A DNA stretch of 64,000 bases from positions 62,001-126,000 of the forward strand of contig JAODTK010000821.1 in assembly GCA_026419785.1 (NCBI GenBank), in the 5' to 3' direction. The DNA comes from Sclerodactyla briareus. Its lineage: Eukaryota; Echinodermata; Holothuroidea; Dendrochirotida; Sclerodactylidae. A model generated the notes under the pieces. It saw only the letters and a list, made by a program, of their open reading frames with translations, searched no databases and was not told the origin of the DNA. Both the position numbers and the translations under genes were made by a program. Below, in pieces: positions 24,088 through 48,461 of this stretch; positions within the stretch are counted from its first letter, which is position 1; the number at the start of each line of letters is the position of its first letter.

Positions 24088-24173
24088 TCATGAGTTGTCA
24101 AGATGGCCTTGTTTCTGACGCAGGCACCCCAGGCATATGAGCGCAGTCTGTCGAACAGAGTTCTCCTCATCCG
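24088..24173 (-). CDS. Possible last exon of the unrecognised minus-strand gene
   Basis: A pyrimidine-rich stretch ending in TTAG lies just before 24173 on the minus strand. If the preceding exon (33147-33303) is spliced here, its one spare base completes an alanine codon. A frame of 28 codons then runs through EENSVRQTALICLGCLRQ to a TGA at 24088-24090. Against this, a second frame (RTLFDRLRSYAWGACVRNK...) is also open from the same acceptor to a possible GTATAC donor near 24067. The intron would also be about 9 kb long. This exon is therefore much less certain than the others in the set, and an unseen exon could intervene. Confidence 0.25.
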
Positions 24174-24339
24174 CTAAGCTCGACCAGATATGGAGATGAA
24201 GCCTGGCTTCGATGAGCCAATTCCTCAAGTGGGCTGAGAGTGAAGGAAAAAGTTGCAAATCATACACTGTTAGTCCACATCGGCTGCCAAATGAACTTGT
24301 TGAAACAGCATCAAACTTGTTTGTTTTTTCATGGTATAC

Positions 24340-24690
24340 TTGCCCAAATATTGGATTGAACCGAAGCAAGGCCCAGCAAATTTGCAGACCTGGATACTGC
24401 ACCATTGGAAGCTGCAAATTCCTACCAAGGTTCACGAAATAAGGGCCAGTGCTCTTTGGCGGCCGACCTTAATAGGGGTCAGGCGTATCAAACACAGACG
24501 GACCCAACTTGCCTACCCCTGTGGTCCCTGCTCAAAGCCCTTGGTGCTGATCATCAAGCGAGAAGGCAACCAGGTACCATTTTCAAAGTCTTGGGTATAC
24601 CTCGAACGGCGAATCGAAACCCGGGTCTACAGGTGGAAGGCCATTGCTTTACCAACCCCTCGGCAAATTTGGGTGGTTCTTGTAGATCCA
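24340..24690 (-). mobile_element. tRNA-derived SINE, family 1 copy with clear head
   Basis: On the minus strand, starting near 24665, GGGGTTGGTAAAGCAATGG resembles pol III box A, and GGGTTTCGATTCGCC (about 24615-24630) resembles box B. The body then has gactttgaaaatggtacctgg, gagcagggaccac and ggggtaggcaagtt, all shared with the copy at 25935. The 3' part carries ggtgcagtatccagg, shared with 15.3 kb. The element is noncoding; overlapping open frames are by-products. Confidence 0.7.
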
Positions 24691-25934
24691 TCTAGGAATA
24701 TAGATATCGGAGTAAAAACCTAGTTCCCATTAATTAGCTTGCGCTATTGCATGCGTTAATTCCAATCAACCAGGCCCTTGTATAGGTTTCATCCTCTGCC
24801 TGGTGAGTATCCCATATAAAAGAGCTTAACAGGTCCAATAAACGCCAATGCTCTAATAAATGCCCACCCCCAAACTTTTGATCAGGTTTATAAGACAAGG
24901 TGAGCCCCCAAAGTGTCTCGCCTGGTTGCACGATCAGTGGTTTCTTCTATCAGTCACCATGCAAACAATCACAAGGCTTCAAGGTGTTGCTTCAGATTGT
25001 GGTATTAGCGTACTAATCAGTGACCAGTTTCAAAAATTCGAAAGGACTGAGTATAAGGTTTTTGGAAATGTGACTAAGTTCGCCTAAATTATGCAAAATT
25101 GACAAAAATTACTATCGTGATATCCAGAGCAGGACCCATTCATAATTTTATAACCTCAGTAACAAAAGGGGACCGCACCCACTAGTGTCATGGAATCCAA
25201 ACGAACTTGCACAAATTTGCCAAATGCGAGCAAATTAACAAATTCATAACCCCCAGGACTCGATCTTGTTGAAATTCGGGGGACTAAAGGTAGAGTTGCA
25301 TGAAAGTCGAACTAACTTTGAAATTTCAATTCAATTATGCAGATTAGACACAGTGAACGACTCCAGGACCCCAAATCTGTGTGAAATTCTTTGGGAGTAA
25401 AGGTAGACCATACTGTTTTGCCAAGATCTGACAATTTCAAAATCTTGCATAAATTATGCAAATTGTATGACCTCATCTTACCATGTGTCAACCTGGATCA
25501 CCATAGCCTCTTCAGTTTGTCCATAAATTGTGTTCACTTAAGCCCCGATACTACATACCAATATTTATCTGAATTGGTCTTACGTTTCGGGGAAATCTGC
25601 TATTAACACAAGAAAGCGGACACAACATACACAATGGAGCGTTACCTGACTCATAAACTACCCTTTGATGACGATCATAAATCTAGAGATCAATTAAATT
25701 TGCATGTTGGAACAGAAGGTTTTGCCCCATACACTTCTGTGCATACAGATCATTGATATTCTCAATATTCTGGCAAAAAATTAGAGGGCAACTGCGAGAT
25801 CTGTTATGAAGAGGTTAGTATAATAGCAGAACCTTTGCGGAATGTTGAATTATTTACCACAATAGAACAATGAAATACATGAAGATAGTCTCTGTGCTTT
25901 TTCAGCTGTGACAGCATGTATTTACGCTCAATAG

Positions 25935-26157
25935 ACTGGTTGGCACAGTTGGTAGAGCATTCCACCCGGGAGATCGTGATTCGAATCTCGATTGGATCAT
26001 ACCAAAACTTTGAAAAATGGTACCTGTTGGACGTTCGCGACTGGTCGGCTCGGCATAAGGATTGGAGCAGGGAAGGACGAGGGTAGGCAATTTGTTGCCA
26101 AGTGCCAAATGCAGATGATATTAATACCCCCCCCCCAAAAAAAAAAAAAAAAAATAA
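25935..26157 (+). mobile_element. tRNA-derived SINE, family 1 copy with poly-A tail
   Basis: TTGGCACAGTTGGTAGAGCA (25939-25958) is an excellent box A and GATTCGAATCTC (25979-25990) an excellent box B, at tRNA-like spacing. Body words acctttgaaaaatggtacctg, ggagcaggga and gagggtaggcaattt are shared with 24.34 kb. The copy ends in a C run plus about 19 A (26129-26155), the tail expected from LINE-driven insertion. Of the family copies here it is the best preserved. Confidence 0.8.
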
Positions 26158-26159
26158 GG

Positions 26160-26900
26160 TTATGCCATAAGAGGCATGGTCATTCTAATGAGCATTTTTA
26201 ATGAAGAATCAAATGAACCATCCCCTTAAAAAATCTAGATTACCATTAGGGATTTCGATGGTGTTCCGATGAACTGGAGGGAGGTGTCTCTATTTCCCCA
26301 GTGGAAGCTCATAAGGTGTTTCTCGAGGACATTCTCAGAGCTAGCAAAAACCCATCATCTCCCTGATGTGACTGGAGGAAGGCCTTCATGATTCCTAATC
26401 CTTTATTTAGGTCTGGAAAAAACAGAACAAAAACCAAAAGTTTAATGAGGCCTTGGGAATCAGATGGCCAAGAGAAAATATCCTTCCAATCTAGCACGGG
26501 TGAAGAAGACAGTGATGGAAGAAGAGAAGCATACTAAGCCAGCCACACAAAATTGCCTTGCTGAGTTATAGCACAGGACCTCTGCGGATATAGGACATAT
26601 GAGCTAACAGACGAGGACGGAACCCATACACCAAATAGCGAAGGACGATCATGGGAGTGCAGATTCTAAGGAAAAGATGAGTTACAGGACGCAGTGAATA
26701 ATAATATTGGAGACTGATGTATACTCACAGTGTTATCACAGTTTGCAGTGGTGATTATATTCAACACCGCGGTTGAACTGTCTATGGCAACCAGTTTCAA
26801 TCCTTTATATCACCTTTGGGAAAAAGAAATACTATTGATGGAACCATAATTGGTTATAAATTCTTATATACTTTCCCATGTATTCCGGTTTACACAAATT
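26160..26900. other. No gene seen
   Basis: I see no coding signature and no repeat shared with the rest of the window. Confidence 0.45.
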
Positions 26901-26904
26901 TTCA

Positions 26905-29900
26905 TTGAAAACCAGAACGCCAAAAGGCTTAGTGATTCCTTGAATGTTCTGTCACCCATAGCAGCACGTGGATAAATGGGAGATAGTACGCCCTCATTAT
27001 GGGCAAAAACGTCTGACAAATTCCTATCTTTCAAACCAACTAATTAGTTCCTTTTACCTTGGTTAGAAAGCTACACACGAATTTCAAGGTTTTCAGACTT
27101 GAATCTGGTAAGCTTAGATGACCCTCAGACCTGACCCCAAAACAATGGGTTCAGGTACCCCCAAGGAAAAGATGCACACCTAATTGTCAACCTGTCAGAC
27201 CAAAACAGTTCGGGAACTTATCGTGTTTACAAGGTTTTCAGACTTGACCTCTGGTGGACCTCAGGAGACCTCTGACCGCCCCCAAAACTAGGGTTAGTAT
27301 TCATCATGGGGAACACACATACCAAGTTGAGCTTCATCCATCGGGTTGGGGTCGAGGTATCGGTAAGACAAAATGTGCGAAAATTGAATTTCACAAATTT
27401 TCTATTTCGAAATTTCGAAGACCGAAATTCACTCCCACCCTGACACCACTAACATAGGGTTCCTGTACTCCACTCCCACCATAAGAAGCTATAACACATA
27501 TTTTCCACTTGATCAACCAAACCGTTTTGGACTTTATCGTGTTTACACAATGTTTTTCAGTCTTTGACCTCGGACCGCAGAGACCTCTGACCCTGACCCA
27601 AAAAACATAGGGTTCATATATTCATCATGGGTAACACCAATACCAAGTATGAGCTTCACAATCCCTCGGGGGTGGGTCGAGTATCGTGTTTACAAGCCAA
27701 AAATTTTCCAAAATATTGAATTTTCACAAATTTTCCTCATTTTCGACCGAAATTCACCACTCCCACCTGACCAAAAACAAAATAGGGTTCCGGTACTCCG
27801 ATAAGAAGCTATACACATAATTTCCAACTTGATCAACCCAACCTTTCTGGACTTACGTGTGTACAAAGGTTTTCAGACTTTGAACCACTGGTGACCTCAG
27901 ATGACCAAAATCCACCCCAACCTTACCCACAAACAATAGGGTTCATGTACGCAACAAAATCATGGGGACACACATACCAATTATGATCTTCATCCATCCG
28001 GGTGGGGTCGAGTATCGTGTTTAACACGCCAAATTTGTCAAATAAATCGAATTTTCACATTTCTATTTCCCCGACCAAAATTCCAACCACCGCAACCTGA
28101 ACCAAAAACAATAGGATTTCCGTACTTCCCCCTAAAAAAGCTATACACCGCCCTTATTTCAACTGATCAGACCAACATTCTTTCTGGACTTTCGTGTTTA
28201 CAAGGTTTATTCCAGACTTTGCCTCTGGTGACCTCAGAGACCTCTGACTGGTTACCCCAAAACAATAGGGTTCATGTACTCATCATGGGGAACACCAACA
28301 CCAAGTAATGAGCTTCAATTTCCATCTGGTGGGGTCGAGTTATCTGTTTATAAGCAAAATTGGCAAAATATCAATTTTCACAATTTTCATTATTTTCCGA
28401 CCAAATTTCACCCCAACCTGAACCAAAAACAATAGGGTTCCTGTACTCCCCCCAAAAGCTATACACCTTCTTTCAACTGATCAGACAACATTTCTGGACT
28501 TATCGGTTTACAAGGTTTCGAGACTTTTACCTCTGGTGACCTCAGACGTTCTCTGACCTGACCCCAAAACAATAGGTTCATGTAACTCATCATGGGGAAC
28601 ACACATACCAAGTATGAGCTTCATCCATCCGGTGGGGTGAGTTATCATGTTTATAAGCCAAAATGGCACCCCAAAAATATCAAATTCCCAAATTTTTATT
28701 TCGACCAAAAATTCACCCCGACCTGAACCAAAAACAAATAAAGCTGTTTCCTGTACTCCCAATAAGAAAGGCTATAACCCCAATAACCATTTCACAACAT
28801 TGATCAGACCCAACAATAACTGGACTTAATCGTGTTTACAATTGGGGTTTTTCGACTTTGACCTCTGGTTGACCTCAGAGGACCTCTGACCTGACCCAAA
28901 ACAATAGGGTTCATGCACTCTCATGGGAACACACAACCAGTATGAAGCCTCTTCATCCATCTGGTGGGGTCGAGTTATTCGTGTTTACAAGCCAACTTGG
29001 CCAAACCAAAATCAACGTTTCCCCAAATTTTCATTTTGACCAAAATTCAACCCCCAACCTAAACCAAAAACAATAGGGTTCCTGTACTCTCCCGATAAGA
29101 AGCTATACAACTGATTTCACTTGATCAGACCAACCATTCTGGACTTATCATGTTTACAAGGTTTTCAGACTTTGACCTCGGTGACCTTCAATGACCTCTG
29201 ATTGACCACCAACAACAATAGGGGTTCATTGTACTCACATGGGGACACACCTCCGATAATGAGCTCATCCATCCGGGTGGGTCAGTTAATCATGTTTACC
29301 CAAGCAAAATTGCCAAATATCAAATTTTTCCCTCACAAATTTGTTCCATTTTCTTTCTAATAAACCAATATCACTCCCGACCTAACTAAAAAACAATAGG
29401 TTCCTGTACTTCCATAAGAGGCTATACACCAATTCAACAACTTGATCATACCACACCCATTTCTGGACTTAATCGTTTTTACAAAGGTTTTCAGGCTTTG
29501 ACCTCGTGGACCTCTGACCTACCTGAACCAAAATAAATGGGGTTCATGTACTTCATCATGGGGAACACACCCTACCAGTATGATTTCATCCATCTGGGTG
29601 GGGCAAGTTATCGTGGTTACAAACAAGCCAAAATTGGCCAAAATATCGATTTTCACATATTTTTCCCATTTTCTTCTTGAGCAAATTCACTCACGACCTG
29701 AACCAAAAACCAATAGTGTTCCGGTACTCCCCATAAGAAGGCTATACACACCTAATTTCATTCCACTTGATCAGAACCACCCATTCCTGGCCTTATCGTG
29801 TTAACAAGGTTTTCAGACTTTGACCTCTTGTGATTTCAGATAACCTCTGACCCTGACCCAAAAAACAATAGGGGTCATGTACTCACATTGGGGAACCACA

Positions 29901-30960
29901 CTACCGAGTATGAGGCTTCATCCATCCGGTGGGGTCGAGTGATCATGTTTACAGCCAAAAATTGGCCCAACAAAATATCAAAATTTCACAAATTTCCATG
30001 TTCTACCAAATATTCACTCCGACCTGAACTAAAAACCTAGGGATCCTGTACTTCCATAAGAAAGTATACACCTAATTCAACTTGATCAGACACCAACATT
30101 CTGTTGACTTATCGTGTTTACAAGGGGTTTTCAGGCTTTGACTCTGGTGACCTCTGACCTGCAAAAACAATAGGTTCATTGACTCATCCTTGGGAAAACA
30201 CACATACAAGTATAAGTTTCATCCATCTGGGTGGGTAGAGGTTATCTGTTTTACAAGCCAAAATGGCCACAAAGATCGATTTTCACATATTCCATTTGAC
30301 AAAAATTCACTCACGACATGAACCAAAAACAACAGAGGGTTCCTGTAATCCCCATAAGAAAGCATTAAACCTAATTTCAACTCGATAGGACCAAACATTC
30401 TGGGGGGGGGGGGACTTATCGTGTTTACAAGGTGTTCAGACTTTGACCTCTGGGACCTCAGAGACCTCTGACCTGACCCAAAAAACAATAGGGTCATGTA
30501 CTCATCCATGGGGAACCACAACTACCAAGTATGAACCTGACCTACTCAACCTGATCAAGTTATCGTTGCAGGATGGGCGTCACAACCACAACCCACACCG
30601 CACACACACAACCTGTGTAGGCGCCCCCAAACGGGGACGCACAAACGGGACATTGCTCTTTCACCTATGGAAATGGGGACATAGTGCAAAAACCTACATA
30701 GGGGTACCCACCTACCACTACATGTATCATTTTTAAGCAGTTTAAAGGGAACACAGGAACAGGGATATCCCCCATTCCGTTTTTTGTGGGGCGTTTTCCA
30801 ATGGAAACGGGGACAAACAAACGGGGATATCCCCAGTTTGCGGCGTATCCCCAGTTACGTGGAAGGGATCCATGTGTGTCCCGTTTACATGGACGCAAAC
30901 CACACACACACACACACAACAACGTGAGGCATAGATTCCTCCGACTTTGTCACGGAATCA
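26905..30960 (+). repeat. DR element, expanded copy 3 (about 11 internal units of ~320 bp)
   Basis: The left end (gccaaaaggcttagtgattccttgaa, 26921-26946) and right end (cgactttgtcacggaatcaaca, about 30940-30962) match the other copies. Between them a ~320-bp unit repeats. The landmark gggttcatgtactcatcatgggg recurs near 27292, 27607, 27938, 28266, 28574, 28905, 29219, 29537, 29870, 30170 and 30490, with spacings of 300-333 bp. Each unit also holds cttcatccatc, tcgtgtttacaag, gttcctgtactcc, gatcagacca and a cluster of TGACCT words. Units differ by many 1-2 base indels, often in homopolymers, so no protein frame is kept. The other copies hold one to three units, so this one has grown by tandem amplification. 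Confidence 0.85.
30613..30900. mobile_element. MITE inserted into the CA tail of DR element copy 3
   Basis: CA-repeat sequence lies on both sides (30585-30611 and 30899-30920), as expected if an element landed inside one CA tract. Its ends are inverted relatives: cgcacaaacgggacat near the left and, near the right, the complement of gcgtccatgtaaacgggacacaca. The inside repeats aaacggggac, ggggatatcccc and similar words in both orientations, so it can fold on itself. No open frame of note is present. Confidence 0.6.
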
Positions 30961-30999
30961 ACAAAAAGACGCATACAAGAGGATTTATAGTGATTCCTT

Positions 31000-32985
31000 G
31001 ACCATATTCGAAAACATTACCAAACTTATTGCAGCACCTGAATGATCTTCAAGTGAACCTTGGAAAACAATAGGGGAACAATCCTCCATTTTCGCAAACG
31101 ACCATCGCCTAAATTGAGGTGATCAATGGGGAATCTACAGAATCATGTCAAAACAAGCTTATCCTCACTCTTAGCTCTCTTATCCCTGAATGACATGAAA
31201 GGACAAACGCAGCAGGCATGTGTAAATTAGCTTAGAGAAAAAAAGGAGGAAAAGCCTCCCATCATGCAAAATAATTGATGTCATACTTGCACAACCTGGC
31301 AACAAGCTTGCGTTCTATTGAAATTCACACATCATTTTCACTTCAAGAAGCATTAGTCTGTCTATGGGAGAGGATTGGCTGTAGGGGTGGTAGGTGGTGA
31401 TTGTGAGAGAAGAAACAGGAACTTCTGCTAAAATGTTGATTTATTTAACAAAATGAAAGAAGGAATACATGACATAACTTCCGGGTGTCAAGTTGGAACA
31501 TCATCCAGTAGTGCACAACTGGGTTTTCCCCAATTTTCTGATAATGGACTCCAAACGTTGAAGGCCAATAATTCCACATCATAACAAAGTATGATATGGG
31601 GTGGGACCAAAGATAGAGTTTTCCATTCTCCACGAGATAACCATCGTTGTATGGCAAGCAAGCTGCTGTTGTCCTTTTTAACTTGCCTCCCAAATTTATA
31701 TAGGGGCTGGTTCCTCTCCTATCTGACAAACCTTTTACAAGCCTAGTTTAAAACTTGTTAATAGTTTTTGCAGTTACAGGACCACCCTACCTATAGGAAA
31801 AAAAACTCATTCAGAATGTCGCCTCTGTTGACTTGGGATTCCACTTGTTCCCTATCTGCAACATTGTTGCCTAAAATGAACTTGATATTTGTCTTGCACC
31901 AATATCACACTAATATGCTACTCTAGAGTTTGCCCTTGCCTAATCTGTATGACATTGACGTAGCCTTCCAAAACAATGGGAATTGTCCTCCTCATATAAC
32001 TTTCCAACACTTTGTGTTGAATTGAGCGAAAACTTGGAAGCTCAATTCAACAAAGTGAAATCACGAATGGATTCAAAAGTGGGTGTCGCCATATGACTGG
32101 GGTTCGCTTATTTGCATAACTTCGGATTTTTGTTGGATTTCAAACGTCAATTTGTAGTGTAAATACACCTGGTCACTTGAGCATGAGGTTTCAAATCCCA
32201 AGGTCAAAGTAGCGTAATTAATGTTATTCCCCCACTTAGTGGGATTGAATAAAAATTTGTGGATGAGACTGATTTGGTCGATGACCAAAGTGAAGGTCAG
32301 GTCACGGTCATCAGAGGCCAAAATCTGCATAATATACACATTTTCACAAACCCGTATGTTGCATATATTATTTGCATGAAATATGCAACTGAATTTATTT
32401 GTAACGGCGATGCTGACCGACTGCATCTGCTAAGTTGTAGCCTACAGTAACATGCAATATCGTAAACAACCACATGCGTGTATTGCACAATGCCTTTGCT
32501 GCTGCTGCCAGGGCAAAGCAGAACATGTTCAAACCTGATCAAATTAGTTAAGCATGAGGTTTAATTATTCCTTTGCATTTGGGTATTGACTCAAATAAAT
32601 ATATTCTTCTACAGATGCTCCTACTTTTTCCCCTGTGCTTTTTTTCTCAAAAATTTTGAGGGAAAATGCACTTCCACTTCTTGCTTTATGGGTTTTCCAC
32701 TATTTAAATGTTATATCCTTGACAAAAGTCTCAAATTTTACAGTATTCAGAGAATGGTTCTACAGTCATACCCTGATTGGTCATAGGCTCATCACCTGCC
32801 TTGATCGAGTTAACCAAAGATCACCTGTTATAGAATAAATTGGCCTACCATATTGGGGCGTAGCTTTCCTTCAAAAAGCATTATTGCAAATCCTTGATAC
32901 CAGTGTAGAATAACAAAATGTTATCGCTGACAATATATACTGGTAGTAGCAAACATATTAGATTAAATGAGACAGTGCTATGATT
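31000..32985. other. No gene seen
   Basis: A 95-codon open frame on the minus strand (31445-31729) is followed by an AATAAA, but it has no motif or splice support. 32073-32330 holds several ggtca/tgacc words of the kind common in old dispersed repeats. Nothing else can be named. Confidence 0.4.
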
Positions 32986-32998
32986 CCTACTCTATCTA

Positions 32999-33124
32999 GT
33001 AATGATGATGATGATGGTATTAATGATGGTGATGAAGATGATAAGAATAATGATGATAATATCAATAATGATCATCATGATGGTGATCATGATGACATTA
33101 ATGGTGATGATGATAAGGATGGAT
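32999..33124. repeat. Imperfect ATG/ATGGTG-type microsatellite
   Basis: About 125 bases consist of degenerate ATGATG, ATAATG and GATGGTG units. The tract lies about 20 bases beyond the 5' splice-site-like edge of the exon at 33147-33303, inside the following intron on the minus strand. It extends the exon's open frame by chance. Confidence 0.85.
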
Positions 33125-33146
33125 GAAAACACATAGGGGGCAGTAC

Positions 33147-33303
33147 CTGCGTCGATGAGGTTGGTGACCACGTCAAAGGTCCGCTTGATGTCTCCAGCCA
33201 TGAGGTTCCTGTCACTACCACAACAGTGTAGGGAGATCCAGTTAAAGTGTGATTGGATGGAAGCCATCACCTCCTCTACAAAACCTTCAAGTGAGCCAGA
33301 TCC
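33147..33303 (-). CDS. Internal exon of an unrecognised minus-strand gene
   Basis: This is the clearest exon candidate in the window. On the minus strand cacatttAG precedes it, and that TAG is an in-frame stop, so the frame opens exactly at the acceptor. Fifty-two codons follow (start GSGSLEGFVEEV; later HFNWISLHCCGSDRNLMAG and KRTFDVVTNLIDA), then G|GTACTG as donor. The exon begins in phase 0 and ends in phase 1. Phase 0 is what the exon at 36643-36724 requires. The composition looks like a soluble helical domain (many alternating hydrophobic residues, one CC pair). There is no membrane segment or signal peptide. I do not recognise the family. The donor is not a perfect consensus. Confidence 0.6.
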
Positions 33304-33384
33304 CTAAATGTGATGAGAAATCCAGAAATCTGATGAATCAGCATCAGTTTATACCAGAAAAGCAATATAGGAATGGTTTAGCCA

Positions 33385-33510
33385 CAGTTGGCACGAGCAT
33401 AGGCTAACTACCTAAGAGATTGGGGTTTGAATCCCGGTTATATCACAAAGAAAGAAGAAATTGTACCTGTCAATATTCAACCTTGTCTGTTTTAATTAGC
33501 CTTTGTGTTA
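33385..33510 (+). mobile_element. tRNA-derived SINE fragment, family 1
   Basis: GCCACAGTTGGCACGAGCATA (33380-33400) resembles a box-A region and GGTTTGAATCCCGG (33424-33437) is a good box B. gaaattgtacctgtc follows, as in the copies at 24.3 and 25.9 kb (aaatggtacctg). The 3' part cannot be traced, so it is truncated or diverged. Confidence 0.6.
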
Positions 33511-33514
33511 AGGG

Positions 33515-36300: not shown

Positions 36301-36309
36301 GGGGACTAA

Positions 36310-36642: not shown

Positions 36643-36724
36643 CTTTCTTTGAATGCACACAAAGGTGGCATTAGTTGGCACACAATAATCCACATGGGGC
36701 GGGTTCTCCACCAGGTCAGTTAGC
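36643..36724 (-). CDS. Internal exon of an unrecognised minus-strand gene
   Basis: On the minus strand, acttctgtaatcAAG precedes the exon and an in-frame TAA lies just outside the acceptor. One base plus 27 codons follow (LTDLVENPPHVDYC, then TNATFVCIQRK), and the donor AAAG|GTGAGC is close to consensus. Its single leading base completes the codon left by exon 39649-39760 (AT+G, methionine). It ends in phase 0, matching the start of exon 33147-33303. Length (82 bp) is normal for an internal exon. The protein fragment has one possible N-glycosylation triplet (NAT), not interpretable alone. Family unknown. Confidence 0.55.
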
Positions 36725-36744
36725 CTTGATTACAGAAGTGAGAT

Positions 36745-37135: not shown

Positions 37136-37407
37136 GGATAGCTGTAAGTGAAAGGAGCAGTTGTTACTGCAAGAATTGATTACAGTGAAAGTTGCAAGCA
37201 AGCTGAATGCCCCCTAACATCTTTTCAAGTGTGACCATATAATGCCCATCTCCCAGAAAAACAACACAGGCTCCCAGTGTCTACCAGACTTACGCACATT
37301 TGAACATAAAGTTGTTTATAACATATGCATATAAAAACAGCACTTATTTTGGGTTGGAGCACGGAAGTTTCTTATCAAACTAGAGTGGGGTGGCGCATGT
37401 ATGCGCT

Positions 37408-38440
37408 ATACTGGAAACCAGAAAGCTAAAAGGCTTAGTGGTTCCTTGACTCTTCTGACAACCTATAGCAGACTCTAAGGGAACAAACGGAGATTGTACA
37501 GCTCATTGTGGGAAACATAACGTCTGACAAATGCTCAATTTTTCTACCCAACAGTAGGGTCCTATAATATGGATAGATAGCTACATACAATGTCAAGGAT
37601 TTCAGACTTTGCACCTATGGTGTGACCTCACAAACAATAGGGTTCATGAACTCATTATCGGGAAACACATACCAAGTGAGAGCTCATCCATACAGGTTGG
37701 GTTGAGTTATCAGGTTCACAAGCCCAAATGGACAAATATTGACTTCCACAATTTTTCTATTTCGACCAAAATTCACCCCTGACCTATACAGACAGGAATA
37801 GGGTTCCTGTACTCACCATAAGGCAGCTACACACCAAATAATCCACCCGAGCAGACCAAAAATTCTGCGACTTATTTGTCCACAGGTTATCAGACTCTAA
37901 CCTCTAGGTGACCTCAGATGACCTCGAACCTGACCCCAAACAACAATAGGGTTCATGTTCTTATCATGGGGATACCACATACCAAGTATGAGCTTCATCC
38001 ATCAGGTGGTCGAGTTATCGTGTTCACAAGCCAAAATGGCCAAATTATGACTTTCACCAATTTTACTATTTTTGACCAAAATTCCCCCGACCTATACCAC
38101 AAACAATTAGGGTTACCTGTGATCCCCATAAGAAAGCTACACACCAAAATTGAACGTGATCAGACCAACCGTTTGAAACTTTGCGTGTTGACAAGTTTTC
38201 AGACTTTGACTTGGTGACTTCAATGACATCTGACTGACCCCAAAACAATAGGGTTCATGTACTCATAAGGGGGAACACACAGACAGAGTTGAGCTTCAAT
38301 CCATCCAGGTGGAGTAAAGTGATTGTGCTTCACAAGCCATGGCGTCACACACATACACAACACACACACACCACAACAACATACATACACCCACACTGGC
38401 ATGACTGCAGTTCTCAGACTTCGTCAAGGAATAAAAAATT
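37408..38440 (+). repeat. DR element, copy 4 (about 2.5 units)
   Basis: It starts with aaaccagaaagctaaaaggcttagtggttccttgac and ends with a CA stretch (38345-38398), cagacttcgtcaaggaataaaaaattg and copy B sequence. The insertion boundaries are known from the empty site in copy A, which places the ends close to the GATTCCTTGAC inverted repeats. Inner units contain taggtgacctcagatgacct (37904-37923) and repeated gggttcatgt and gttcctgt words. No target duplication is obvious. Confidence 0.8.
38345..38400. repeat. CA-rich microsatellite at the DR element 3' end
   Basis: Impure CACA/ACAACA repeats just inside the right end are found in each full copy (10585-10605, 19648-19670, 30580-30611 with 30899-30920, and here). 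They are part of the element, not a chance microsatellite. Confidence 0.7.
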
Positions 38441-38974: not shown

Positions 38975-39010
38975 CCTGCCAGTGCGTAGCCAGAATTTTT
39001 ATGCTAGGGA
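38975..39010 (+). repeat. hAT-like terminus fragment
   Basis: CCAGTGCGTAGCCAGAATTTTT resembles a hAT terminal repeat of the CAGTGGCGTAGCCAG type. No partner end was found, so this is a solitary end or a chance match. Confidence 0.35.
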
Positions 39011-39648
39011 GAGGTCAAAGAGTGGGTGAGTATCAGCTGATATCGGATAGGGCCAACCCTATTTTCTCACTTAGTGATTGGTGTAGGGAGAGTCAATCCG
39101 TAGGAGAGTTCAACGAGAGAGGTTTCAGCCACGGTTCTCTTCCGGCATTACAGGATGGGAATAGATGGTGTGTATGGTATGGGGGACAATCAGACACGTG
39201 CTCATACAGAGATGAGAAAATGCAGCACTCAAGGACAGGCTTGGGCTCCCAAGATGTAGTCTGTACTGTGTGAGAATGATTGGTCAGCACCCCTCTGTAG
39301 CTGACCATTTGGGGATGTTATATCAGTTTCTCCGTGACTTGACAGACTTTAACAACAGTCCATACAGTTGCCTCAGGTAATATGAGTTGTCCAGTAACTG
39401 AAACAAGATACAACCACTGGGTGTTCAAACCCACTTAAGTCTCACTCACCTATAGACTGGATAAAACAGGAGTGTATACTGACCACTGGCATCCAAGAAA
39501 ACAGCCGTAAAAGTACATACACCATGCTGCTGGACCTACTGAATGACCCAGCACTGTATGGACAATGACCACCGCAGAAGCGTGTGATTAATATCCCATA
39601 GGGCCATAAATGTGGACCTGTCCCCTAATAAAATATTGATTTACTCAC

Positions 39649-39760
39649 ATTTGGGCAATATCTCGAGTTGTGCGGATCGCGATGATGAGGTCGGCTTGCT
39701 TTGCCAGCAGTTGCCGAGTCCGACAGGATGGCACAGAGGGAGTTCCGTAAGATCCATCTT
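39649..39760 (-). CDS. Internal exon of an unrecognised minus-strand gene
   Basis: On the minus strand, after acttcTGAG (an in-frame TGA at the acceptor edge), two bases and 36 codons are open: DGSYGTPSVPSCRTRQLLAK, then QADLIIAIRTTRDIAQ. The donor AAAT|GTGAGT is a good consensus. It ends in phase 2 and exon 36643-36724 supplies the missing base. It begins with two bases that fit a phase-1 exon upstream. The middle (RQLLAKQADLIIAIRTTRDIAQ) looks like an amphipathic helix. The acceptor's pyrimidine tract is weak, which is the main reason for doubt. Confidence 0.5.
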
Positions 39761-39764
39761 CTCA

Positions 39765-41690
39765 GAAGTTCTCAATCATCTAGGGCCTGATTGAGTCAAT
39801 AATTGTCAATTAAGACACTAAGCGCTGGGGCCAGTTGGTACCATTTATCACCGTTATGCCATTCTGGTGAGGTCATCACCATCCTGTTGGAGCCCCCTCC
39901 TAATCTCCAAATCCTCCATGTTGCTCTTGTCTTATGCTACGTTTTGGTCACATCCTCCTCTACTTGGTTCAGCTGAATGGAATGCCCACATGATTCTCCC
40001 ACGAGAAGCACACTCGCCAGAAACTGCTCTGCCGCATGAACTACAAACATGCTCTCATGATCGTTGAGTAAATCAATCGCAACGGTGACTGCTTCTGTAA
40101 GGCCATGGAGAATGAATATAAGTAAGCGTCCAATCCATTTGAAACTTCCTCAATTTCAAACCCTGTACCAAATCACTTAAGGTGGGGAAATCACTATGCA
40201 CGAAAACACATCCATTACTAATTCACATTTTTAGAGAACAAGCACAACAGCCGAAGGTTACTGTCTTCCTATGCAGGCCTGGACATTGTTGGCTGCTACC
40301 ATAAGCAGAGACTGAGGAAGGTGCCGTCCAGCGCTTAAAGGAATGAATCTAAGAGGGAATTTTTTTATTTCTCTTATGATGTTTTCACAAGAGAATACCA
40401 ATGAAAGAGTCCATTTGAGCTGGGATGTTGAAACTAGAGAACCAATGATGCTGTAGCCCAAACCACACAAATGCTTCATTTTTATTGCAGATAAAATCAT
40501 CTTTTTTGTGACTCGAAATAACACGCGTGGATAACCACCGACTTGAAATTTCTGAACACCCACCCACTCCTTAAAGACCACTGGTCATTGATGACAATCG
40601 CCACAGGTTAATCTGCTCCCCAAAATACCCTATTGGTAAGAATATCACCTAGATGACCCGCTGATCTCTAAATGACCACTGACCCCAAATTCAGGCTCAC
40701 GCTATATGCACCATGCGTTAGAGCTACACATTGGCCACCCTTTACCACATTTGTCATTTTAGGGAAATGTGTTGCTCTTCAGTGGAGGGAAATGCAATTT
40801 TCCCCTGACAATGGCTCATCATGCCCTCACACAATAGCTTACTATGCCCTTTCAATGGGTGCGTTTTAGTTGACTGTTAGTGATGATAATTATGTAATTC
40901 GCCTCCAATAGAGGGACCTGATTGGCTGACGATTCATGTACACCATTACATCATCTCACAGAGCTAACAGTCCGGAAGACTGATAGTTTGGGCCCACGCC
41001 CACTGCTAGCACTGGTTTTATACACAAAAATATAAATGATAAAAAAACACTTGAAACTTGACAACAAAGCGGATTATGATTACGTGATCACTTTGCGATC
41101 GAGTCGACGTGCAAAATTATCTATCACGAACAGTCGACAAAACGCACCCAATGACATTTGAGGACCGACTGTCCAATTGGTAAACATATAAAAGACTGAG
41201 CATACCACTAGGCCATGAAAACACCAATCAATATTAAGTTATCCAACCCTAAATGTAGTGGAGAAGGAGCATTTTGCATATTTTTACATTTTTTTTCACA
41301 TATAGCTCAATATGCCCCCAAATCCCGGAACACCCCGAAGGTAGCCATAGTTCATGATTACACTGACGGAGAAGCATTTTGCAGATTTTCACATAATGGC
41401 CTATCGAGCCCCTTTCATCATTTTTAGCTTGGAAGCGGTAAAAGATGTCCCTTAGGCTAATAGATATTCTATTCAAGTTTGGTCAACATCTGTCAAGGAA
41501 CAAAAAAGTGAGAGCCAGCCGCAGAAAGCAAAAGTTGACAAACTAATCAGACAGACAGACAGACAAACTGCAGTGGCGAATCCGAAGCTTTACCACGCTG
41601 ACTAATGAGGCAACCCCTATACCACGGACTATCATGTGGATACTACGCAGTTATCCATTGCAAACTTCTCCACCAGGATTCAACATTAGT
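39765..41690. other. Presumed intron; no repeat or gene recognised
   Basis: The stretch holds gtcaaggaacaaaaa (about 41493), resembling the right end of the DR element without the rest, and a short GACA run (about 41551-41566). Otherwise nothing can be named. Confidence 0.4.
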
Positions 41691-42075
41691 CAATGCCTCT
41701 ATGACAGGACTATCAGACCTGGATACTGCATATCGATCCATTGAGACACCTAACAGGGCCAAATAACCAACTGCCTCTTGGCGTACTGCAATGGGAATGA
41801 CTGGAATGGAGGTGGTACGGGTACTGAATTTGGGGAGGAGCAATGGGAATGGACACTTGTTATAAAGAGCACAAAAAAACCATTGAACCAAAAAAGGTTA
41901 TAAGATGAAGACTGTAGTATATTGGGTCACCAGGCCCCACAAGTCCTACAGGACTCTGAAGTTTTTTTAGGGTTCTTAAGGATTCCAAGAGAAATCAATC
42001 CAGTTATTATCTGCTATTTTCCTGAGGAATCTGGAAAAGCCTGGAAAAAGCAATGGCCCAACACGCACAAACAAC

Positions 42076-42296
42076 TCCCCGCATCCTCCAGGATGGGCCG
42101 CCATTCCTCGATGTTGACCAGTTCGGCTACAGCAGTAATCCATGCATACGTAACACTCATGTCACTTGAGTTCATACAGCCTCTCTCCAGTAGAGCCTGC
42201 CCAGTGTGGAGAGCTCTTCCCGTGTGAGGACATTGCTCTGAAAGGAGCTGGTCTCCATTCTGATCGGTTCGGTGATGATTGTACGTGCTCTTCCTC
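42076..42296 (-). CDS. Internal exon of the minus-strand gene, with a likely 1-nt frame break
   Basis: The acceptor ccatttatccAG is good. Two bases then complete the codon left by exon 48383-48461 (G+GA), and 39 codons are open (GRARTIITEPIRMETSSFQS, then LTREELSTLGRLYWREA). At about 42175-42177 the frame hits TGA. Shifting by one base, it continues as SSDMSVTYAWITAVAELVN and IEEWRPILEDAG to a weak donor A|GTTGTT at 42074. With that donor the phase is 1, which is what exon 39649-39760 needs. A missing base (assembly error or mutation) is the simplest reading. Alternatively the exon stops at GCT|GTATGA (42178) and the rest is coincidence. Family unknown. Confidence 0.45.
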
Positions 42297-42299
42297 CTG

Positions 42300-43290
42300 G
42301 ATAAATGGACATATAGGGATCAAATTCCATTATATTGCTACCGTCAGGACACTTCTTGTAGAGGTAGACCTAATGTGTAAGCAGTTACAGTAGAAACCAG
42401 TATTATCATTCGACTCAATTTTGATTTCTTGGCACAAGCAAAGCAACACTACATTTGAGGCCCGAGGTGCTCACTGTGACTGTTTCCATGTTTTGGTCAA
42501 GGATTGTAGGAAGCACTGGGTGATTTGATTTGATTTTGATTGCTAAACGGTTCAGGAAGCCATTTTGGACTCTGTGAACCCTAACCGAATTTTGATCGTG
42601 GATTAAGCAACACCGGCGACAACTCGCCTTCTCTTCTCGACATAGTGCTCAGATGATATCTGATGCAGGGAGTGGGTCACCAATCCCTGCTCCCGGGACC
42701 GCACTTTTCCGTCCCCACCCGACGGCACGATCAGTGACCTCCAGGATCCTGACCACTTTCTCAGAACCTGGATGGCTGAAAAATGTTCGACGCGACTGCT
42801 CACAGCCGACCGACGAGACCTATGCAAGTGCCCCCGAAACAACCCCCGAAATTACCAAGCCCACGCTCAACATCAGGACCAGACCTAAGACTCAGGACCA
42901 CGCCAGTCAACTGCCAGTAACATGCCACTTCTTGGAAAAACGGCCCTTTTCTGATCGGCTGAATGTCTACCCGGGACCTGGTTGCATATGCAAGCGACAC
43001 GGACCACCGCTCTAAACTATTTCTCCCTCTCCTCCCTAGTCCCTATTCTCTCGCCGCCCAAGTGTGATGGCCACCCTAGCTTGTAATATACCTGTAAGCC
43101 CTGCAATGGCTCTCTCGCCTTGACCCGTGGCTGGGTGAACAAGGCACATTTGTCTAGAATGTCAGGCAAAATCAATGACTGCTGGCACCGAGCAGGGACA
43201 CCTCCATTTACACGCCCCCCAGCCCCGCATGGGCTCACCTCAAAGTGTATAAGGATAACTCTTTCACTCACTCACTAGGTCAGCCAGAGC
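42300..43290. other. Unnamed dispersed repeat fragments
   Basis: 42612-42850 shares words with 17838-17920 and 5400-5450 (cttctcttctcg, agatgatat, cctgctcccgg, ccccacccgac). 43120-43215 shares ggcacatttgtctagaatgtcagg and gggacacct with 45045-45130. So at least two repeat families are present, but their type is unclear. No gene is seen. Confidence 0.45.
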
Positions 43291-43745
43291 AGTGCTCTAG
43301 CAGGATTCTCCCATCATCCATACAGACCAGTAACTTTGCCCCCTTATGCTACTTTGTTCCCTAGTGGCGAGGCTCACCATAGAGAATGTTGTTGGCGGAT
43401 GTGTCTCTTCAACATGATTTTAGAGCCGCTCTCAGCATGAGAGTATATGTACCGTTGAGTGACCTTTCTAGGACAGTCTGTCCAGGTCCAAGTTTCACTT
43501 CCATACAGCAGGACAGATTCAACGGTTGGCCTTAGAAAAAAGTTCAGGTTCACAAGCCGACTTATCCGAGAATTCCACACCCTCTCCATCCTTGTCGAGG
43601 GCTGTCCAAGCAAGCGCCCTTTCTGATCTTGATATCACCTTTGTAGAGTTGACCCACAAGCTTCTCAAGAGCTTTTCCCCAATTGTCATCAATGGGAGAT
43701 CGTTGGTACAATGGCTGCGAAGTCTTTTGCGATTGCAGGTGAGCC

Positions 43746-44505
43746 CAGGGGCGTATATATATAAAATTCCCGGGGGGTCGGACTTCATTTGAGAACGACA
43801 AGATTTTCGTGAGACCGTTCTGATTATCGGTTTGTACAGAGGCGGCGCAATGCGGGGGGGGGGATGTCGGGGAGGGTGCTCTGGGGGTCTGACTGGGTGG
43901 CCAATCATTTTCTTTAGTGCTCTTGTGATAGACTTGATCTGGCGGGAGGGGTCTAAGGGCACCCCCTCTCACCATTGCGAAATTTTGCAAACCGGGTGCT
44001 ATCCTAGTTCGATATTTAACATGAATTACCTATTAAAAATATTCATTTTTCTGCCAACCCATTTTTCCCGATGTAACTGTGTGTTAAGATAATGTGTGTT
44101 GTCGGAAACGCGTCTGCCTACTAGCTCATGAATAGGCCTAATAAGCATATAAGAGATTTTTTTTACTGTGGCTCACCTTTAGACAGTTGCCAGTATCCCG
44201 TGAAAACAAAACTTTTCAGTTTGTACAATTGGGCCATAAGCCCCCGAAAGCGCACTTCACCTCAGTAAAGACCGCAGTCTGTGGAATCACAACATTAACA
44301 TAAACACCAAACCTGTCATACCGGTGTCACTCCAGCATTTCTGAGATTTGCAGCTTGTAGATATTGGACAATAGGCCAAATTTTATTTAGTCGGCATATA
44401 AACTAAGTAGCCATGCTACGTGAACAGTCGCAAGAGACCGAACGTCGGATTTTTTCCAGGGGGGTGTCACACCTCACACCCCCCCTCCCCGTATTTACGC
44501 CCCTG
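43746..44505. mobile_element. Nonautonomous hAT element with 8-bp target-site duplication
   Basis: The terminal inverted repeats read CAGGGGCGTA (43746-43755) and TACGCCCCTG (44496-44505). Both sides are flanked by ggtgagcc (43738-43745 and 44506-44513), an exact 8-bp duplication. CAGGGGCGTA ends with 8-bp duplications are diagnostic of the hAT superfamily. The inside has G and C runs next to the ends (43854-43863 and 44478-44490) and no transposase. It interrupts the RTE-like LINE. Confidence 0.9.
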
Positions 44506-44736
44506 GGTGAGCCCCACCCTCGCACGTCACTTTCAACAAGTGTACGACAATTAGTTTGCTTGATGGATGTCATCGGCAAAGTCGGTAAGTGAGATGGCAG
44601 GGCATCTCCTTGACTTTGTTGAAGTTATTGTGGAGCCTAATCAGTCTCCTTTCCATTTGTTGCTTGGCGTAAAGCATAATCAACCATGATTACAAAGATG
44701 AAGGGGGCAAGCGTATCACCATGCAATACCCCTGCT

Positions 44737-44960
44737 AAGATTCAAGTTCCTCCGTCTTCGTTCAGTGCGCTGTATTTGTGGAACGCACTCCCAGACCATG
44801 TTAGTACTGTGGACACCTTTAAATCCTCTCTTAAGACCTAACCTTTTCACTAGGCGTACTTTGGTAGTTTTGCACTTGTATGTTAAGCCGCTACATGAAT
44901 TATTGTTCATAGTTTTTGGCGCTATATAAAAATAATATTGTTTTTGTTGTTGTTCTCTCC
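44737..44960 (+). pseudogene. L2/CR1-like LINE C-terminus and 3' end
   Basis: The open end reads SSFSALYLWNALPDHVSTVD then TFKSSLKT, with a stop at 44839-44841. LYLWNALPDH...TFKSSLKT is the standard C-terminus of L2/CR1-type LINE polymerases. It is followed by a short 3' region and ggCGCTATATAAAAATAATATTG plus a TTGTTG tail. The piece is strongly 5'-truncated. It lies on the strand opposite the RTE-like LINE and separates that element's NGIPLK block from its GDTLAPF block, so it inserted into it. Confidence 0.8.
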
Positions 44961-45714
44961 GTCTTGAGAGGAATGCCATTCGCTTTCAGGATCCTGCCCA
45001 CCGCCTCTTATGGACTGATCAGGTGCACATTAGTTTTTACATGGATATACGAGGCATATTTGTCAAGAATGTCAGGTGGAGCCAATGTATACTGGGTACT
45101 GTATACTGGGACACCTACCATACCAGGTGCATAGCTCTGTATCGGTTTTTTTTCCTTATCACCTGGATTCACATGTAAGAGGTCAGTGCAAGCAGCACTT
45201 CCAACGCCACACTGAGACAAGATCCTGCCCGTCCGTCGAGGCTGACTGCCTCCCACTCCCCCCTTCCATTACATTCTAAGCGGCGACCTCCCTCGTAGCA
45301 GGAGAAGGAAAAAATTATCACTAGAGGCTGTCTTGCCTGAATTATCTGTGCTGAGTACATGGTTTTCCTGATCAGATGATAAACTAATAATGATAATATG
45401 AACTAGGCATGTATAAATTTATTTATTTTTCGAGGGACAATTGCAAATGGAACAAGCTCCCCTTCAAATTCTAGCTGGACTGAGCAATGAGAGTTCTCCA
45501 AGAGGGCAGTTGGAACATGGCTACATCAATAATCTGCGCACCAACTATCTTCCATCGAAGAGTGCCCTTGGAGTACCGCAATGAAGATGGAAGCTCTGCT
45601 ACCTTGAGAACCTAGTGCTGTACTAGCCGTGTTGGCATACAAGGAGGCACCCCATTACAATGGGAACCCCCAATTCAAAGGTTGCCTCAAAGTGCACTAC
45701 CACCTAGAATACGA

Positions 45715-45975
45715 TAGGTCTTCAAGTAACCAGTGAGACGGACTCTCTAATACCACTTGGCAACTTATTCCGTATGCGGGGAGCCATGCTAGAAGAAATA
45801 TTAGAAAACAGATTTTTTTGAGGGATCCACAAAGTTTGATCAGTGAGTGAGACAGGTGGTGACAGAGCATAAGCTAGTTCTGGCAGGGCAGTGCGTATGA
45901 TGCAGTCAGTAGTAGGTGGGAGATGACTAGAAGAATTGATGCACTGAAGATAAATAAAACACCTCAAGGTTTCTT
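45715..45975 (-). pseudogene. L2/CR1-like LINE C-terminal fragment
   Basis: The minus strand reads SLTDQTLWIPQKNLFSNISS, then SMAPRIRNKLPSGIRESVS. This corresponds to the usual ...FSVAAPRLWNSLPxxIRxS block near the end of L2/CR1 polymerases. An in-frame stop follows directly and no 3' tail is visible. It is an isolated fragment and cannot be functional. Confidence 0.65.
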
Positions 45976-46779
45976 CCCTTTCAAAGCGTAGTCAATGTAG
46001 CTGTCAATGTTGTCATAGACACAGAGGAGTGTGGTATACTTTGACCAATTACAGAAAGTTTGGCTGCCCCAATTCTGATTCACTGTAATTTGATAATATT
46101 CAATTCACACGACAGCCAAAGATAGAAGTGACCTGTCCACAATTTCATTTGGTCGTTCTAGAACATGTTGTTTATTTGGTTAATTGTGTCATGTGGGGTT
46201 TTCGACCTTTTGAAATGCAGACCTGCCCCTCAATGAATTGGCGCTTTCTTAGCGCGGCCCTAAAATGCCTCACGATTTCTACCGGCTTTTTGCCGGTTTG
46301 TGGTACTGTTTTCATCGTCCCGTTCTCATCATGTGTTCGAGAGTTTCTACGTGCAGGGGATGTGTTTCTAGAGACTGGCCAACTGCTTTAGCGTGTGAGA
46401 ATCGTGACATTTCATCCGCTCCTGTGAGCAGGAGTTAGTGAGAGTATAGGCTCACCTGGGCGATCCTTCGTTGCGCCACTGAGTACTACTCTGCATGGAC
46501 ACCGATCGACTGCATCACATCACGGCGGGGGGGGGCAAGGCCCTTGTTCTATTCGATGATCAACTCTTTCACTAAGACGGACTCATCCGATTACGGATAC
46601 ATTGTATAACACAATTAGGAGATTAATCTTGGGAGCCACCACAGGGGTCGCAGAGCTGGCCGTTGATGCGCAAGCGAGTTCCGTTGTTCAGGAGCAACCC
46701 CCGGCTACTCCGACGACGGCGATCCCATCGCCCGTGAACCAGGGGCCACCTTGTTCGGGTAGCTCTGACGGTAGAAGAG

Positions 46780-47910
46780 CCTCGAATGTCCAACCTGTGG
46801 AACTCGCAATCTATCGGCAACAAGGACAACGACGGTGTGACTACTCCTGGACCACGATGTTGATGTGCTCGTGGTGGTGTGAGTCCGGCTGGCTGACGAA
46901 GGATCCTGTAATCATCGGTGAGATGTACTCAGTCGCGGTTATCATTTATCAATTTTCCTGAGACCGGGTAATGACAGACACGGAAATAAGGCATTGCGTA
47001 TAGCAGTAAATCGAACCTGAACCTTAGTATCGCCTCTTCCGGTATTTATTGACAGCCTTGTCTTTTGAACCTGACGGTTACTGACATTTCAAAGTCCTTA
47101 CGGTGTGATTGCAATTCTATCGGACCCGCCACCATCTAGAAAAAAAACGGATTTACACCACCTATTCGTCGAGGGCAATTCGAAGAAGATTTCTAAAGCG
47201 CCGTCTCTAACCGCCCAGGACGGCTGCCTCATAATGGGGGATATGAAGTTCATGTAATATGATCACTGAGACCTGACGTTACCCGTATTATGTCGTTAGT
47301 GGACCGAGCATGATTTTGAACAGATGTCAACGGCCCTATCCCAAAGTCGTGGCACACTCTGGACCAGTTATTAGCCGTCCCGACGATGGACTTATGTCAC
47401 ATGACGCTTGTGTTGTGTCACAATTCATGTAGGATCTGACCACCACATGATCAAATGCAAGGTCAACATCGCAAAACCACCCCTTCAGAGACGAGGTTTC
47501 TTCCAGAAATTTCAGAGATATGGGACTTGGTTAACTTTTCATCCGACCGACAAAGCCACGGGGCATCATATTATGTGCGTTGACGACCCCAGCGAACAAA
47601 CCGAGCTCTACAATAACGTCTGTTCTCGTGTTCGCGATGAAAAATTGTCGGTAAAACTACCAGCGCCGAAATCGTGGGGAAGGGAATGCATCTGCCTCCG
47701 GATTCAAGCGACAAATGTGCAATGTTTCAAAAAACTTCTGAAAACACTCATCTTTTTCCGTCTGAGTAAATCCATTTTAAAACGGTTTCATCGTGTCTTT
47801 ATTGTATTTTATACACAGTCTAAGGATTTTAACATATTTTATTTTTGTACAGCGTTTCATCTGTTGAAGGCCGCTAGATACATGACTTGACAATAACAAT
47901 GAATTATAGT
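46780..47910 (+). pseudogene. L2/CR1-like LINE: endonuclease joined to the C-terminus, RT missing
   Basis: In shifting frames, the parts of an apurinic endonuclease domain appear in order. They are LWNSQSIGNKDND (46797-46835), DHDVDVLV...ESGWLTKDP (46853-46912; family DHDVDVLALTETWL) and SDPPPSRKK near 47120-47142 (family YRPPPS). Next are LIMGDMKF (47228-47251; family GDFNFH), RGTLWTSY (about 47350) and SDHHMIKCKVN at 47435-47467 (the histidine motif). Sequence then jumps within about 250 bases to TNVQCFKKLLKT (47710-47745), the LINE C-terminus, and a tail-like ctagatacatgac...aacaat end. The whole RT domain is absent, so this is an internally deleted or template-switched copy with many stops. 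Confidence 0.75.
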
Positions 47911-48382
47911 GCATAACCTTCAGGCATCATAAGTAAGCAGGCCTTTTTAATTTGGGTAGCCTCAGATACCTTTTCGAAAGTCTTCGGAATATGCATCATT
48001 CTTTTATTGGTGCCAAGGTAGACAGGGGTTTCAAACTTGTAGCACGGACATACCACTAAACATTCGTGGCTTACCGGTGCATACTCCAGTCTCCAGGCAC
48101 GAGCCAAACTGCTCATGTTATAGTGGGAGCAACAGGTACTCTTTTTGAAAGTCTCTCGTTATGACCCTGACAACGCAATTTCATAAAGTGACACTGCTCA
48201 CCAACTCTTAATAGTGTCCACTCATGATCTGGCAGCAAACTTAATTACCACCCGAGGATGGATTCTTATCACTAGAAACCCTGTACAAAAAGTTATTATT
48301 GGCTACAAACTTACAAAAGAATCTCACCAATAACATACACACACACAAGACATATATATATTACGTATATTAACAAAATCAC

Positions 48383-48461
48383 CTTTGCTCCTGAAGGATT
48401 CTGGAACCATGCATAAGTTGCTCAAGCCAGTTGTGTCATCCTGAATGTCCTGCTCATGGTT
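48383..48461 (-). CDS. Exon of the unrecognised minus-strand gene (most upstream seen)
   Basis: On the minus strand, cacgctgctgctAG ends with an in-frame TAG. Twenty-six codons follow (NHEQDIQDDTTGLSNLCMVP, then ESFRSK) plus one base, then donor AAAG|GTGATT. Phase 0 at the start and 1 at the end fit the exon at 42076-42296. The fragment is acidic at first, with no domain I can name. Earlier exons must exist but none could be picked out in 48.5-64 kb. Confidence 0.5.

Follow-up and report, generated by a model that had tools for sequence, protein, structure and literature searches.

Probable minus-strand exons of an ordinary multi-exon animal gene in a 64,000-nucleotide stretch of Sclerodactyla briareus DNA

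The minus strand of the DNA analysed here (the window, 64,000 nucleotides) probably carries exons of an ordinary animal gene present in single copy and made of multiple exons, or exons of two adjacent genes; the probable product is a helical-repeat (ARM/HEAT-like) protein. An earlier note had joined five short minus-strand blocks into one chain and offered a sixth as a possible last exon. This proposal was partly confirmed: two of the blocks, and probably a third in a longer form, look like real parts of such a gene, while the exact chain, a letter presumed missing from the second block, and the identity of the gene were not established. We infer that the pieces share one transcript and that the product has a helical-repeat fold.

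The codon log-likelihood ratio (LLR) of each block was ranked against random open stretches with a table trained on exons of the same genome (2,742 codons, mostly from receptors; the species table), and donors and acceptors were scored with approximate matrices. The candidates are as follows, with the number of random stretches scoring as high.

48383..48461, minus strand: block 1, weak candidate; LLR 0.6 (620 of 6155)
42178..42296, minus strand: block 2, 5' part, GRARTIITEPIRMETSSFQSNVLTREELSTLGRLYWREA; LLR 7.7 bits (22 of 3307); present in chains built without a phase rule
42076..42177, minus strand: block 2, 3' part (2b), MNSSDMSVTYAWITAVAELVNIEEWRPILEDAG; LLR 7.6 (21 of 4416)
39964..40094, minus strand: candidate exon absent from the earlier chain, AVTVAIDLLNDHESMFVVHAAEQFLASVLLVGESCGHSIQLNQ; LLR 3.4 (78 of 2699)
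39649..39760, minus strand: block 3, borderline candidate; LLR 2.5 (167 of 3816)
36643..36724, minus strand: block 4, with a strong donor (6.7 bits); LLR -4.1 (2236 of 5862)
33147..33303, minus strand: block 5, GSGSLEGFVEEVMASIQSHFNWISLHCCGSDRNLMAGDIKRTFDVVTNLIDA; LLR 5.6 (21 of 1838, 1.1%)
24091..24233, minus strand: extended form of block 6, HLRNWLIEARLHLHIWSSLADEENSVRQTALICLGCLRQKQGHLDNS, followed by a TGA at 24088-24090; LLR 3.6 (59 of 2261); HEAT-like
17325..17455, minus strand: further candidate exon beyond the earlier chain, ...SHEIFDWEVKLLALQFWEQFFVAGVP; LLR 3.1 (85 of 2699)

The signals on which the earlier chain had been built are there: AG and GT borders flank all five of its joined blocks, an in-frame stop lies at most 9 bases from the acceptors of blocks 1, 3, 4, and 5 (read by eye), and the phase series 1, 1, 2, 0 holds on condition of one frame change inside block 2. 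By themselves, such borders, stops, and phases are weak evidence, since the window contains 37,434 open AG..GT intervals of 48-400 nt (both strands included, each frame counted separately). It is easy to find short open blocks whose phases join, and phases are not fully trustworthy here because the assembly has small frame breaks.

We then compared the best exon chains with those of 100 dinucleotide shuffles at exon costs of 6, 7, and 8, with or without a phase rule. With the species table, the minus strand showed a coding signal, in codon use and splice sites, above that of the shuffles. In the interval of the earlier chain, the best minus-strand chain was equalled by 2, 1, and 1 of the 100 shuffles (in order of exon cost) under the phase rule and by 2, 1, and 3 without it; over the whole window, the counts were 0, 0, and 2 with the rule and 1, 2, and 4 without. 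For the plus strand, 17-26 shuffles (phase rule) or 16-17 (without) were as good in the interval and 22-32 or 12-15, respectively, in the window. The human codon table gave 8, 12, and 13 of 100 for the interval and 0 of 16 and 0 of 100 for the whole window. The signal in the interval is carried by block 2, by block 5, of which the printed chains retained the 3' half, and by the longer block 6; the chains without the phase rule added one exon starting at 40094. At the level of single pieces, the scores of blocks 2, 5, and 6 and of the 40094 exon reached that of real exons (species table). All eight genome matches of the searched pieces (blocks 1, 3, and 4 were outside the query) were the window's own sites, block 5 having itself as its single match; the tested pieces are single-copy in the genome.

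Block 2 looks coding, as just 0.3-0.7% of random open stretches score equally with the species table; its donor is poor (-8.0 bits, approximate matrices). The earlier reading lets one base be missing between the 5' and 3' parts, whose frames differ. This is possible and needless: in the frame of the 3' part the whole block is open over 73 codons with no base missing, its LLR in that single frame is 9.4 bits (2 of 793 random stretches as high), and this is the form, 42069-42296, used by the phase-ruled chains. Frames in the receptor genes of this assembly break about once per 1.4 kb, so block 2 may lack a base, though this is unproven; in that case an assembly indel would be the likely cause. 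In the frame of the 5' part, the sequence is open upstream as far as a TAG overlapping an AG, which would place the exon start at 42369.

An exon at about 40094-39964 was probably missed in the earlier chain. Its start phase agrees with the end of block 2 and its end phase, 0, with block 5, and the exons ending at 42076, spanning 40094-39964, and beginning at 33303 are mutually phase-compatible. The segment 39990-40094 is included in the chains without a phase rule. Of block 5, the 3' part (33147-33214) is in every printed best minus-strand chain, with both the human and the species table.

The sixth block had been proposed, as 24088-24173, for the last exon. It is coding-like (LLR 4.1 bits, a level reached by 2.3% of random open stretches) and closes on a TGA with no GT, but it is poorly delimited, for a better acceptor lies upstream at 24233 and the frame stays open that far; 24128-24233 is contained in the species-table chains. 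In its extended form, the block resembles the Pfam HEAT repeat (PF02985; E 0.0017), aligning to profile positions 5-27 of 31; the likeness covers one repeat only and, at 18.9 bits, is under the gathering score of 23.5 bits. Its matches in the PDB are alphaRep designs.

Blocks 1, 3, and 4 fared worse, all three being dropped from the printed species-table chains, and the earlier chain as such is unsupported. Blocks 1 and 3 occur in none of the printed best chains with either codon table. Block 3 has a poor acceptor (-9.5 bits, approximate matrices) and is open in all three frames. The codon use of block 4 resembles that of non-coding sequence (38% of random stretches as high), and the block appeared in one chain with the human table (exon cost 6). 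In the gene that we favour, the earlier note would have caught two real exons in blocks 2 and 5, and the last part of a third in block 6; block 4 and probably 1 and 3 would be chance open stretches, and the mRNA would arise by usual splicing, with short exons set apart by introns of 2 to 9 kb. Codon use of the same genome set the better blocks apart from the worse.

The best lead for a family name is BRAT1. Human BRAT1 (BRCA1-associated ATM activator 1) is an ARM/HEAT scaffold that binds the Integrator endonuclease, working with the subunits INTS9/INTS11 (PDB 8uib, 8r22). As a special case of the favoured gene, the locus could be a divergent BRAT1 orthologue, which we regard as possible but doubtful: the sequence likeness is not significant once the choice of exons is counted. 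The peptide joined from block 2, the 40094 exon, and block 5 can be aligned to residues 105-203 of human BRAT1 (28% identity over 95 columns; equalled by 2 and 0 of 2000 shuffles), and HHalign scored the same join at 29.8 against a maximum of 19.9 among 60 shuffles (single-comparison E 0.0024), yet its own probability was 12%. The later, HEAT-like block 6 resembles BRAT1 554-582, in correct order (42 and 57 of 2000 shuffles did as well), and the 40094 exon resembles 145-172 (1 of 200 shuffles equal).

Against this, a large hidden search applies to the match, because BRAT1 was hand-picked. When exons were chosen freely, scrambled proteins did equally well in 21 and 22 cases of 100 for the region 33-42.6 kb and in 0 and 8 of 100 for 24-48.6 kb; raising the intron cost gave 38 and 51, and 8 and 25, respectively. 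The best free-choice path takes a different part of BRAT1. Blocks 2 and 5 singly have no BRAT1 likeness (block 2 was equalled by 147 of 300 and 98 of 100 shuffles, block 5 by 97 of 100); for the 40094 exon and block 6, 6 and 13 of 100 shuffles, respectively, were as good. The 17.4-kb exon fits human BRAT1 514-526 better than 646-674, contrary to order, and for the joined C-terminal pieces 171 and 484 of 2000 shuffles were as good. Human residues 1-100, 225-500, and the C-terminus have no convincing counterpart at the locus. Chaining without an intron model gave 134/84/59 against maxima of 129/74/61 for 24 scrambled proteins, by a different chain than the one proposed, and once an intron model was included, the plus strand gave the reversed protein a higher score (75 vs 63). 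Whole BRAT1 had no genome match at E<=10, in a search rated uninformative by the tool, and the 10-kb flanks on each side held no clear BRAT1 piece. The C-terminal tail of human BRAT1, ...GDEADCY in the PDB, is important; a pattern scan of the minus strand below 16.7 kb found no such tail; the exon encoding it might lie beyond the window or have escaped recognition. The human exon borders in print (c.803, c.1015, c.1134, and c.1498/1499) all lie outside the aligned part; a further one may lie near codon 144, although a search for it found none. Two other candidates were rejected: the earlier joined chain as BRAT1 (matched by 327 and 694 of 1000 shuffles) and 17456-16670 as a frame-broken last BRAT1 exon (12 of 300 and 14 of 100). 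If the locus is BRAT1, the protein would act as a scaffold like its human counterpart, and the gene would be one more divergent invertebrate copy of an RNA-processing scaffold, useful and unsurprising.

It is unlikely that all the blocks are chance open AG-GT stretches, with no gene in 24-48 kb. The number of comparable intervals, the 8-13 of 100 shuffles that reach the regional chain with the human table, and the lack of a family match at the cut-off speak for chance; under the species table, that chain is matched by no more than 1-3 of 100 shuffles, block 2 is within the top 0.3-0.7% of random stretches, and block 6 is HEAT-like. A decayed copy with true frameshifts is quite improbable. It would fit the possible frame change in block 2 and possible frame jumps in 17456-16670, where the codon signal is patchy, but block 2 can be read through in one frame, the genome search found no intact parent copy, and the receptor genes are also frame-broken, which points to the assembly, though these receptors too could be pseudogenes. 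A helical-repeat protein restricted to this lineage, with no recognisable orthologues in other phyla, is in our view a very improbable product of the locus. The least credible reading, which we rejected, makes block 5 part of a GADD45-like protein: the pattern HFxxIxxxCCxxD...GDxxR (by eye, from the alignment) is shared with GADD45 gamma, which also accounts for all three chains in the PDB listing (E 0.59-0.65), and the block 5 ORF ranks first of 2513 window ORFs by a local profile built from three human GADD45 proteins (E 0.062), but these E-values (0.59-1.2 in the searches) are at chance level, block 5 has no Pfam match, and the neighbouring blocks give no support, the GADD45 score being no higher when blocks 3 and 4 are added.

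In Pfam, the block peptides and joined blocks hit no family at the cut-off; in the PDB, the best E for the blocks or for joined blocks 1-5 was 0.48. That the gene is undescribed, as the earlier note suggested, does not follow from these searches of Pfam and the PDB. All three minus-strand frames of 5001-64000 (14-15 kb pieces, stops as X) gave one chance-level Pfam match, PRIMA1 (E 0.29). Such long pieces lost the HEAT match of block 6, and the scan therefore excludes strong domains only. Rfam gave no match at the gathering score and a tRNA scan, run with the bacterial code, found none. Beyond the earlier chain, the segment 17379-17455 is in the whole-window chain built without a phase rule, and a share of the whole-window signal sits at 53-57 kb.

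The earlier note had proposed five exons of a gene on the minus strand (blocks 1 to 5), with a sixth as a possible last exon. Inspection of the sequence confirmed that each of the five blocks is preceded by AG and followed by GT and, by eye, that an in-frame stop lies at the acceptor or at most 9 bases from it in blocks 1, 3, 4, and 5 and that the phase series 1, 1, 2, 0 holds, provided that there is one frame change in block 2. Since AG and GT occur everywhere (37,434 AG- and GT-bounded open intervals of 48 to 400 nt in the window, both strands, counted per frame), the blocks were scored by their codon use. The codon table was built from kinase and seven-helix-receptor matches in the same genome: of 36 fetched, the 21 free of stops were used (2,742 codons) and the other 15, which contain stops, were left out. 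It was combined with a mean amino-acid composition. As controls, open stretches of equal length that follow an AG were drawn at random from the window.

Codon scores of the proposed exons (all minus strand) and random stretches equalling them
42178-42296, block 2a, one side of the proposed missing base: 7.7 bits, 22 of 3,307
42076-42177, block 2b, the other side: 7.6 bits, 21 of 4,416
42076-42296, block 2 in one frame: 9.4 bits, 2 of 793
33147-33303, block 5: 5.6 bits, 21 of 1,838
24088-24173, block 6: 4.1 bits, 137 of 5,862
24091-24233, longer block 6: 3.6 bits, 59 of 2,261
39649-39760, block 3: 2.5 bits, 167 of 3,816
48383-48461, block 1: 0.6 bits, 620 of 6,155
36643-36724, block 4: -4.1 bits, 2,236 of 5,862

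Block 6 is the end part of a frame that closes with TGA and, in the upstream direction, continues as far as a good acceptor at 24233. The base thought to be missing from block 2 is allowed but not required by the sequence, because the block is open throughout in one other frame (73 codons); the two-frame reading beats the one-frame reading by 5.9 bits, before the placement of the frame break is charged. A Pfam 7tm_1 search of the genome gave 42 matches. A receptor profile built from 9 of 30 fetched loci matched all 30, and near-contiguous receptor parts lay in differing frames in 8 of them. After subtraction of duplicates (L027 and L033 hold one gene, L025 and L045 another), six receptor genes remained, with 10 frame changes in all (one each in L023, L026, and L031, two each in L025 and L035, and three in L027). 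Two of these changes rest on matches of E ~0.1. Most genes, at 22 of the 28 distinct places, had none. Assembly indels are the likely cause, and it is possible that the affected genes are pseudogenes. Over ~14.3 kb of distinct covered sequence, the rate is ~1 per 1.4 kb, and therefore a missing base in the 221-nt block 2 would be unsurprising, yet not to be expected. Assembly errors are also to be expected at two places in the window, 6321-6373 and 61088-61135, which contain long runs of C and G.

Unbiased exon chains were then compared with those of 100 local dinucleotide shuffles at exon costs of 6, 7, and 8.

Shuffles (of 100) matching the chain at the three costs, with the phase rule and without it
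Minus, 24000-48600: 2, 1, 1; 2, 1, 3
Plus, 24000-48600: 26, 24, 17; 17, 16, 17
Minus, whole window: 0, 0, 2; 1, 2, 4
Plus, whole window: 32, 22, 22; 15, 13, 12

With a human codon table, the chain was matched by 0 of 16 and 0 of 100 shuffles in the whole window, by 8, 12, and 13 of 100 in 24000-48600, and by 2, 4, and 8 of 100 in the window less 50001-64000. The regional paths at exon cost 7 (species table) were as follows.

With the phase rule, minus: 42719-42767, 42069-42296 (block 2, one frame), 33147-33214, 24128-24233
Without it, minus: 45173-45291 and 39990-40094 in addition, 42178-42296 replacing the longer block 2

Blocks 1, 3, and 4 were each absent from every such path; block 4 appeared in the human-table chain at exon cost 6. 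The short open interval 42719-42767, just 5' of block 2, scored high (14.1) in all species-table chains and is a possible further exon. Part of the whole-window signal comes from candidates at 53-57 kb (57159-57270, 56456-56608, 54702-54746, and 53712-53813, minus; all high scoring, one G-rich), which may belong to another gene.

None of the pieces reached the Pfam cut-off. Block 6 matched Pfam HEAT with E 0.0017-0.0021 (18.9 bits; cut-off, 23.5) and designed HEAT-like alphaRep proteins in the PDB (the best E, 9e-7, adds up many weak repeats), while block 5 and the joined blocks had no PDB match below E 0.48. If real, the locus is an ordinary spliced gene, perhaps encoding a solenoid protein, and nothing suggests a new mechanism.

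The pieces show a likeness to BRAT1, an ARM/HEAT scaffold; that the locus is BRAT1 is improbable, and we keep it as a lead. The human query was identical to PDB 8uib_T across 821 residues. Block 2, block 5, and a candidate exon missed earlier (40094-39964, minus) aligned jointly to human residues 105-203 with a score matched by 2 (BLOSUM62) or 0 (BLOSUM45) of 2,000 shuffles, and HHalign gave the same pieces a score of 29.8, with none of 60 shuffles above 19.9 (95 columns, 28% identity; E 0.0024 for a single comparison; probability, 12%). When exons were chosen freely in 33-42.6 kb, however, 21 of 100 shuffled and 22 of 100 block-shuffled proteins did equally well (38 and 51 at a higher intron cost); in 24-48.6 kb, 0 and 8 of 100 did (8 and 25), and the best path there ran through a different part of BRAT1. 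Among the 20 exons of an unbiased chain, the 40094 exon alone stood out (1 of 200 shuffles as good), and it matches two repeats of BRAT1, which is also what a generic ARM/HEAT repeat would do; the next best, 17455-17325 (18 of 200), lay in a register other than the order of the pieces demands. The joined C-terminal pieces showed no likeness above shuffles: 171 and 484 of 2,000 were as good (HHalign, 16.7; shuffles, up to 21.0). A piece at 47176-47256 (minus), PSWAVRDGALEIFFEL, resembles human BRAT1 511-527 (17 residues aligned, 53% identical; E 0.86 in a search of the window) and is out of order relative to the other BRAT1-like pieces. Human BRAT1 exon borders were sought in PMC8960271, PMC9126772, PMC13335351, PMC3260153, and PMC12926101; the abstract of PMC9418311 describes interaction of BRAT1 with INTS9/INTS11 of the Integrator complex.

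Blocks 2, 5, and 6, the 40094 exon, and pieces at 16.7-17.5 kb (blocks 1, 3, and 4 being left out) were joined and searched against the genome (319,486,128 bases; 3,171 contigs), in which the window spans 62001-126000 of its contig. All eight matches were the window's own places; thus, within that search's reach, the queried pieces are neither repeats nor duplicated genes. About 7.5 kb past the low end of the window, on the same strand, lies an exon matching NDEL1/NDE1 (PDB 2v66, E 2.8e-6); it runs from ~54468 of the contig downwards (minus; within 52001-62000) and has one residue more than 2v66. A tandem array at 37623-38312 has a 309-bp unit in 2.3 copies; by eye, similar peptides recur in open reading frames at 27.9-30.7 kb, and the unit is perhaps an interspersed repeat.
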